Shown piece after piece: positions 50,717-54,799 of a stretch of DNA of 64,000 nt. The position numbers and the translations under genes are program-made. The stretch's first letter is position 1. Each line of letters starts with the position of its first letter. Source of the DNA: Guyparkeria hydrothermalis (GTDB lineage: Bacteria; Pseudomonadota; Gammaproteobacteria; Halothiobacillales; Halothiobacillaceae). The notes beneath the pieces are model-generated. The model saw only the letters and a program-made list of their open reading frames with translations. It was not told the DNA's origin and made no database searches. The stretch is from positions 124,001-188,000 of the forward strand of contig NZ_JAJSEE010000004.1 in the NCBI RefSeq assembly GCF_023555375.1, in the 5' to 3' direction.

Positions 50717-54412
<3,696 letters not shown>

Positions 54413-54799
54413 CCGTCTCGCAGGCCGCCACGGGCCGCGAATGCTCGCGGGAGTTGAGTTATCCCGCTAGCAGGCCGAGAATGGCGAGGGAAACTTTGCA
54501 CGAATGGCATACCGCTCTGCGCGCCTTGAGCCGGGCAGATGCAAGGCGGCCGTCCGACGCGGAAGGGTGATTCCCTTTCCGAGGACGGCAACACAGCAGA
54601 TGTCCGGCTCAAGGCGCGCCCTGCGGGGCCTGTCGAGCCGCCCGTGCTCGGCGTTGCGCCGTCTTGGCGTGGCCACCGGCACGCCGGCGACGACGTGCCT
54701 TGATCACGAACGGCTCGACAGGCCAGAGCGGCATGGCATTCGTGCAAAGTTTCCCTAACGCGAGACGGCCGACACACCCTCGACCCGCATCGGCATCCA
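54413..54799. repeat. Gene-free stretch holding a 268-bp nested palindromic element
   Basis: No supported gene. An outer inverted repeat (54488-54519 and 54724-54755, 32 bases, 30 matching) begins GGGAAACTTTGCACGAATG and its mirror ends CATTCGTGCAAAGTTTCCC. Inside are two independent hairpins: a 16-base perfect stem GCGCGCCTTGAGCCGG (54519-54534) with CCGGCTCAAGGCGCGC (54604-54619), and a 14-base perfect stem GGCCTGTCGAGCCG (54627-54640) with CGGCTCGACAGGCC (54711-54724). The first contains a further GCCGTCC/GGACGGC pair (54549-54555 / 54583-54589). The layout is a three-way-junction palindrome, MITE-like. No flanking target duplication was evident. Confidence 0.8.

Follow-up and report, generated by a model that had tools for sequence, protein, structure and literature searches.

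The window analysed here is a 64-kb stretch of the Guyparkeria hydrothermalis genome, in which a palindromic element of 268 nt occupies positions 54488-54755 of the forward strand, between the genes that an earlier note on this sequence had named metH and zapD. The features of the locus are as follows.

50717..54412, + strand: metH, the upstream gene (name as in the earlier note)
54449..54483, + strand: promoter-like block, TTGAGT, 17 nt, GAGAAT, ahead of zapD and outside the element, just before the insertion
54485..54488, no strand: left 4-mer at the insertion point, CGAG, where YTAR is expected
54488..54755, + strand: whole element, full-length; 268 nt by the palindrome, 266 nt if the outermost G and C are target duplication
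54488..54519, + strand: left terminal inverted repeat, 5' side of the outer stem, ending in CTCTG
54520..54618, + strand: arm 1, a hairpin with a conserved internal loop
54536..54548, + strand: arm 1 loop motif, 5' side, CAGATGCAAGGCG; over 26 diverse copies AA and GC are invariant and the intervening G almost so
54589..54602, + strand: arm 1 loop motif, 3' side, CAACACAGCAGATG; AA invariant in the 26 diverse copies
54619..54626, + strand: inter-arm linker, part of CCC..GGG
54627..54723, + strand: arm 2, the arm 1 module inverted
54643..54657, + strand: arm 2 loop motif, 5' side, CGTGCTCGGCGTTGC; GTT invariant in the 26 diverse copies
54695..54711, + strand: arm 2 loop motif, 3' side, GTGCCTTGATCACGAAC
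54724..54755, + strand: right terminal inverted repeat, 3' side of the outer stem, starting with CAGAG
54755..54758, no strand: right 4-mer at the insertion point, CTAA
54800..55579, + strand: zapD, the downstream gene (name as in the earlier note), with 44 nt from the element to its start

The outer inverted repeat measures 32-33 nt with two mismatches (94%), and once the 4-bp target duplication of the family is allowed for, the element proper runs from 54489 to 54754 (266 bp). Inside the outer repeat are two arms, 54512-54555/54583-54626 (75% overall) and 54627-54649/54702-54724 (87%), and the proximal part of the first pairs free of mismatches in the fold. The predicted RNA fold of 54488-54755 has an energy of -200 kcal/mol, compared with -124.4 ± 5.1 for shuffled sequences (n = 200, z -14.8, none of the 200 as good), and the DNA fold gives a z of -14.9. 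Both are three-way junctions, and the palindrome with two outer mismatches and the junction described in the earlier note were recovered here. Among the open reading frames of at least 80 aa at the element, one of 84 aa begins inside and stops 3 nt past it, and the remaining ones enter from outside; judged by its sequence, the window element is short and without coding capacity, as is characteristic of MITEs. A model built from 26 diverse copies, two of them other subfamily A copies from the window's genome and the window copy itself left out, matches the element with an E of 8e-66. No second copy was found in the 64-kb window up to E 1, except for a reverse-strand match of the same palindrome; since arm 2 is the arm 1 motif inverted, the model matches both strands.

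The promoter-like block preceding the element is kept with constant spacing in all ten Guyparkeria loci examined, and where the element is present it begins 3-6 nt past this block. By manual count the block holds 8 of 12 consensus bases, which places it under the cut-off of a strict promoter scan. In the ten Guyparkeria genomes the GGGAGTTGAGTT..GAGAATG block (54449-54483) can also form a small hairpin, and it may be a promoter or the terminator of metH. If TTGAGT-17-GAGAAT is the zapD promoter, the entire element would be transcribed as leader; it sits between metH and zapD, as first reported, and probably in the zapD leader.

Empty sites, looked at for the zapD locus only, give a view of its history. 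Outlier G003 apart, a full element occupies the site in four of ten loci (G000, G002, G006 and G009), and five are empty (G001, G004, G005, G007 and G008), as is that of G003, with spacers of 103-120 bp; G010 retains a relic in which part of one arm is recognised (21 bits). As relatives show both presence and absence, zapD tolerates the element and its lack. The copy is common to four species whose zapD genes differ by a dS of 0.33-0.53, a divergence by which the window copy is old. This runs against the recent insertion that the earlier note had read from the near-perfect pairing, and active maintenance of the pairing at this site, its other proposal, fares no better: among the four orthologues 17 pairs differ, 13 of them on one side only, and 11 are without a standard pair in one or more species (manual count). 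Between species the zapD copies are 91.8-94.8% identical (5.2-8.2% different), as against a zapD pS of 0.26-0.38, and the 600-nt flanks of the copy are 87-90% identical to the flanks in G000. This slow evolution could stem from constraint acting in place, from exchange among copies or from transfer of the locus. G001 is devoid of the element though near G002 and G009 by zapD, which requires loss or transfer. A second orthologous pair (L015/L039) shows 86.5% identity, with flanks at 87-90%. Given CGAG on its left and CTAA on its right, the window copy's own duplication either decayed or was never perfect.

BLAST of the window's own genome (2.43 Mb, 9 contigs) located about 40 places, the window copy included, and the best two dozen matches covering most of the length are 83-93% identical to it. 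Allowing up to 3 mismatches, the 19-mer of the terminal inverted repeat occurs 46 + 45 times in this genome and its reversed control never; allowing up to 2, the terminal 16-mer occurs 76 + 72 times, as against 1 + 0 for its reversed form, which suggests about 75 elements. We read 59 two-ended copies there, 38 of them full length (260-275 nt), and the closest pair among these 38 is 97.4% identical. Copies were also found by BLAST in 9 of 10 other Guyparkeria genomes, the miss being G003, which is 64% complete and deeply diverged; in other Halothiobacillaceae genera, 1 of 14 genomes gave one weak match. The earlier note had named a lone copy with neither homologues nor an empty site as the outcome that would tell against it; the searches of genome and relatives that it proposed returned the opposite, and a single relic is ruled out.

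From these genomes we assembled 89 copies (59 from the own genome, 20 from G009 and 10 from other Guyparkeria), three pairs that overlapped or were duplicates having been removed; copies whose terminal 16-mer has over 4 mismatches, and some places of the 16-mer scan, lie outside this set. Two subfamilies, A and B, align poorly to each other by BLAST and have a common length near 268 nt. Size variants comprise copies with one arm (about 160-235 nt), copies without arms (44-95 nt) and enlarged copies (279-352 nt). Those of about 340-352 nt are L045, L049, L077 and L090 in the own genome and C28, C47 and C70 of G170; folding of L045, L049 and L090 places extra hairpins inside arm 1, from which it follows that the fold tolerates added arms. 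One insertion site holds 267 nt in G000 (L011) and 57 nt in G009 (L104), the latter the outer stem only, so that both arms were lost or gained. Several contigs end in or near elements (L028, L040, L041, L074, and C1 of G006, C112 of G008 and C34 of G010), and these assembly breaks were probably caused by the strong hairpins or the repeats.

The alignment of 58 full-length Guyparkeria copies (A1, which holds all but one of 59 such copies, the 273-nt L101 being omitted) has 84 consensus pairs, formed in 97.0% of cells and changed on both sides at 49. Its covariation is 0.423, against 0.151 ± 0.005 when shuffled and less than 0.09 with slid partners, the consensus structures of this and the following set being derived from the same alignments, which favours pairing over the slid versions. 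The consensuses of A and B differ at 30 of the 84 pairs, at 29 of these on both sides with pairing kept. Identity between them is 57% in arm stems (74 columns), 71% in the outer stem (56) and 87% in internal and junction loops (55); overall it is 65% in paired and 76% in unpaired columns, the apical loops being less alike. The diverse set (A2), a structure-free alignment of 26 copies from 21 genomes and 19 genera, has 100 pairs, of which 91 changed on both sides, with 94.7% of cells formed, a percentage enriched by the fact that its members from outside Guyparkeria were found with a structure-bearing model (R1, below). Covariation reaches 0.885 in this set, against 0.212 ± 0.009 shuffled and at most 0.147 slid. 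Few bases are strongly conserved, and most of them are in a loop or next to one: arm 1 has CAAGGC and CAAC, arm 2 has GTT and CCT.G, and CCC..GGG lies between the arms and YTCWG at their foot. The ends of the 26 copies fall by eye into at least seven dissimilar types. Across these alignments, stems and ends are rewritten between lineages, and the pairing and the loop motifs persist.

The same architecture extends well beyond the genus. R1, a covariance model of the Guyparkeria copies, matched at least 64 of 274 Gammaproteobacteria genomes at E 1e-5 or better (51 of 221 genera; three of the 64 are Guyparkeria), and R2, built on the 26 diverse copies, matched at least 80 of 299 Pseudomonadota genomes (40 of 154 genera), 29 from the same class, the own genome included, and 51 from other classes, 43 of which belong to one family (f191); with 6-7 candidates scored per genome under strict filters, these counts, made on real genomes only, are lower bounds. 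Among the R1 matches listed, most span the whole model (257-268 nt), some being shorter and some longer. The family fold of about 265 nt consists of an outer stem and two arms, and the same loop module recurs in both arms, inverted in one relative to the other. Carriers known by name are plasmids of Azotobacter chroococcum, Halomonas sp. PA16-9 and Pseudomonas aeruginosa PA83. Further hits outside the relatives of Guyparkeria looked, by eye, like chance matches in genes, except for L122 of Acidovorax, a one-armed relative. Plasmid searches with L141, L144 and the Guyparkeria ends gave nothing relevant, and searches of phages found nothing.

The ends carry the trace of insertion. In the 28 copies with TA on both sides the flanking 4-mers are exactly alike in 13, and in the 89 copies overall in 20. 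Within the 28, the last base of the element recurs at position -3 in 20, where 11.5 would be expected (0 of 20000 permutations), and its first base recurs at position +3 in 20, against an expectation of 14.2 (0.012). Where the 4-mers are not palindromic, they form a direct repeat in 5 copies (CTAA twice, TTAG once and ATAA twice, the ATAA pair coming from adjacent L038 copies that are not independent) and an inverted repeat in none. REP and REPIN elements lack a duplication and carry inverted tetranucleotides at the base of the hairpin, and ends of this type are ruled out by the same count. Flanking duplications in other genera read CAAG/CAAG, CTAA/CTAA, TTAA/TTAA and CTAG/CTAG. Judged from these flanks, the family, as is usual for MITEs, duplicates a 4-bp YTAR target, a duplication that the window copy does not display.

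In G146, a genome in one contig, there are 22 copies whose 18-bp ends are perfect; 16 of them are 263 nt long and differ on average by 1.1 nt, and such near-identity in sequence marks recent movement. TA flanks both sides in 19 of the 22, not YTAR, and the ends are unlike those of other copies; orientation relative to replication is mixed. No longer pair of G146-type ends was found in this genome, so the enzyme comes from elsewhere in it or is gone. Several neighbouring sequences were recorded alongside. In L152 (401-604, G146) a copy adjoins a second, related element, and L157, L172, L182 and L185 (G146) adjoin a recurring sequence like GGCCTGTTAACACTA, perhaps the end of IS5-type copies. In G280, G155 and G081 (L144, L146-L150) there are elements of 158-321 nt with ends like GGAACCTCTGATTAA, unmatched by R1; several are flanked by clean duplications of CTAG, CTAA or TTAA, and a CAAGGCG/CAACG loop is present in several. 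L144 of G280, whose matching ends lie 1.24 kb apart, was considered as an autonomous element and proved to be two short elements flanking an unrelated open frame.

A candidate for the moving enzyme comes from the plasmid copies. Those of Azotobacter, Halomonas and P. aeruginosa start with GGGYCTGTTGACG, after CTA or TTA, and ends of this kind, with one or two differences, recur on insertion sequences (ISs) of about 850 bp at CTAG on plasmids of Aeromonas caviae and Raoultella planticola. With the IS5 family model NF033580 the transposases of these ISs give E 1.2e-79 and 8.2e-83, and they also match DUF4096 and DDE_Tnp_1. The IS5_3-type IS of Aeromonas and the Azotobacter plasmid copy are alike in 16 of their first 17 bases, and both lie at CTAG. 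The target preference of IS5 is a 4-bp YTAR. As the plasmid copies share ends and target with IS5-family ISs, their mobilisation in trans is likely, and on sequence grounds the lineage in Azotobacter, Halomonas and Pseudomonas looks like a passenger of IS5-type elements. The earlier note did not recognise the element as an IS-derived MITE; an origin apart from ISs is not supported, as copies in other genera have IS5-family ends and target.

We propose, with a probability of roughly 0.7, that the window element is an old copy of a phylum-wide, fold-conserving MITE family moved in trans by an IS5-type DDE transposase. The element would be a non-autonomous DNA transposon, with two inverted hairpin modules within a long terminal palindrome, whose ends are acted on by a transposase supplied in trans; it would spread by cut-and-paste and insert at YTAR with a 4-bp duplication. 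The folded molecule would be DNA rather than RNA, probably extruded as hairpins on single-stranded or supercoiled DNA, and the loop motifs may be read as sequence by the transposase or by a host DNA-binding protein. If the fold is needed for propagation, stems should change in matched pairs in the lineages that spread, and a copy that has landed would be freed from this constraint and decay. At zapD the outcome would be a very stable hairpin in the transcribed leader, and we take any effect there as a by-product.

The pattern of substitutions conforms to this proposal. Rare states within subfamily A (n = 121) are one-sided in 85 cases, two-sided and paired in 25 and two-sided and unpaired in 11, and within B (n = 68) the corresponding figures are 43, 20 and 5. 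Differences between the subfamilies are compensated and those of single copies mostly are not, so that the fold seems needed for spreading and not at zapD. We read this as selection on the lineages that spread, followed by decay after landing.

Several findings count against the proposal. No NF033580 (IS5_3-type) transposase was found in 9 Guyparkeria genomes; PF01609 is represented by one gene among 11 Guyparkeria genomes, in G002, without such ends, and PF05598 by one gene, in G003. A resident IS4/IS5 transposase as mover in Guyparkeria was rejected, none being present in G000 or G009, as was L132 of G002 as partner, for which there are no matching ends within the locus. No autonomous IS with Guyparkeria-type ends was found on plasmids. 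G146 does carry IS5-type genes, and no element ends were seen around them; with its other ends, its TA flanks and no longer end pair, IS5 cannot explain everything. The window copy itself has CGAG and CTAA, and agreement of the 4-mers is confined to 20 of 89 copies. The conservation of the zapD copies relative to zapD pS would rather suggest constraint in place, and an excess of G-U pairs over A-C mismatches leans towards a folded RNA (209:66 cells in A and B together, 150:56 in the diverse set). Finally, one-armed and armless copies, some with clean duplications, imply that the two arms are dispensable.

Of the other explanations, a possible one, compatible with the one we prefer, is a portable structured module that hitch-hikes on different transposases, with the arms as the unit of selection. 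By eye, at least seven dissimilar types of end are combined with the same arm loops, and TA flanks in G146 contrast with a 4-bp YTAR elsewhere, both as such a module would produce; YTCWG is nonetheless retained below the arms in nearly all copies and YTA..TAR flanks in many, so that the ends of one lineage may instead have changed stepwise in matched pairs. Carried further, and put forward tentatively, the family would be a phylum-wide selfish structured DNA of about 265 bp, a pair of inverted hairpin modules with fixed loop motifs that exchanges its terminal repeats and depends on no single transposase: any host DDE transposase, IS5-type at YTAR or another at TA, would propagate it, and a conserved host protein would read the loops in folded DNA.

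It is doubtful that the element is a structured RNA, transcribed here in the zapD leader and selected as a fold for gene control or as a small RNA. Strong covariation, conserved internal loops, a window copy just past a promoter-like block and slowly evolving zapD copies would all suit an RNA. Selection on one RNA strand should also leave more G-U pairs than A-C mismatches, and by cells G-U exceeds A-C in A (120:36), in B (89:30) and in the diverse set. Many of these cells are alike by descent, however, and the structures were predicted with energies that permit G-U; rare states, which are nearer to single events, show no clear strand preference (GU:AC 27:22 in A, 14:18 in B, 25:35 in A and B together and 41:29 in the diverse set, one-sided binomial 0.09). 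Orientation likewise gives an RNA little help: by a crude gene call on 26 contexts, 6 of them dropped because a predicted frame overlaps the element and the other 20 divided into 15 tandem, 4 convergent and 1 divergent, 10 of the 15 copies in tandem contexts share the direction of their neighbouring genes and 5 oppose it. Most rare changes lack compensation, and there is no Rfam match.

Matched changes could also arise from DNA template switching between palindrome arms, known as quasi-palindrome correction, instead of selection. We regard this as unlikely for the family as a whole, even though in the 89 copies departures from the consensus are alike at both ends of a copy at 59 positions and not at 62, part of the 59 being inherited within subfamilies, and rare GU and AC states are about equally frequent. 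It leaves unexplained why internal and junction loops are kept (87% between A and B) when arm stems are not (57%), why length is near-constant across genera and why rare states are mostly one-sided (85 of 121 in A, 43 of 68 in B), and it may have contributed some of the matched changes. Least likely of all is that these are ordinary, decayed MITEs and that the fold is a mere side effect of their long inverted repeats: stable stem-loops are common in MITE transcripts according to the accessible part of PMC10969869 and one-armed and armless copies have good target duplications, but inverted ends alone would not be expected to yield conserved asymmetric loops in two arms, a length that hardly varies, or changes on both sides of 91 of 100 pairs over 19 genera.

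The family is a gene-less mobile element present in about a quarter of the Pseudomonadota genomes sampled, its members not joined by sequence similarity because the fold is kept and the sequence lost. Selection on DNA shape in a transposon, and what reads that shape, become testable, and many of the intergenic palindromes, hairpins in leaders and contig breaks of these genomes may be traced to the family.

With regard to known systems, Rfam 15 gave no match at the gathering score: the window region had three matches with E 0.04-0.35, far under that score, and eight loci with other copies had none. A known Rfam RNA is thereby ruled out, in line with the earlier note, which had recognised no known RNA and suggested this check. 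No description of the family was found in Rfam or in the mostly open-access literature, ISfinder apart. The closest likeness is to the MITEs of IS5-family ISs (IS5_3 or ISPa67-type), which are also gene-less, with terminal inverted repeats, a CTAG-like 4-bp duplication and many copies; the present family differs in a two-arm interior conserved across lineages with dissimilar ends, and in Guyparkeria no partner IS was found. The bcr1 repeats of the Bacillus cereus group, ERIC/IRU and Correia elements are mobile repeats with stable folds, and differ from the present family in sizes, ends, targets and hosts. Integron attC sites and the T-shaped terminal hairpins of viruses are folded DNAs with variable stems in which unpaired bases matter, and have two small arms within an outer palindrome; here, in contrast, the ends abut duplicated targets and neither an integrase nor a nickase is linked. 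In Pseudomonas fluorescens, the accessible part of PMC2718517 describes R0, R2, R6, R26 and R200 as intergenic, hairpin-forming repeats, R0 and R2 sharing ends with ISs and R6, R26 and R200 measuring 177, 352 and 320 bp; the hairpin-forming families, inverted repeats round a variable core, were compared by description only, and one of them may belong here. QMITE2 of Coxiella, as far as the part of PMC10969869 at hand describes it, is likewise short and gene-less, with terminal inverted repeats and a very stable predicted transcript fold, and is set apart by its description, having direct repeats of 7-9 bp, terminal repeats of 23-29 bp and a core of 113-145 bp. Overall, the finding is more general than the earlier note supposed, the window copy being one of many in a Pseudomonadota family that joins a conserved two-arm module to MITE-like ends and target, the ends being IS5-type in some lineages.
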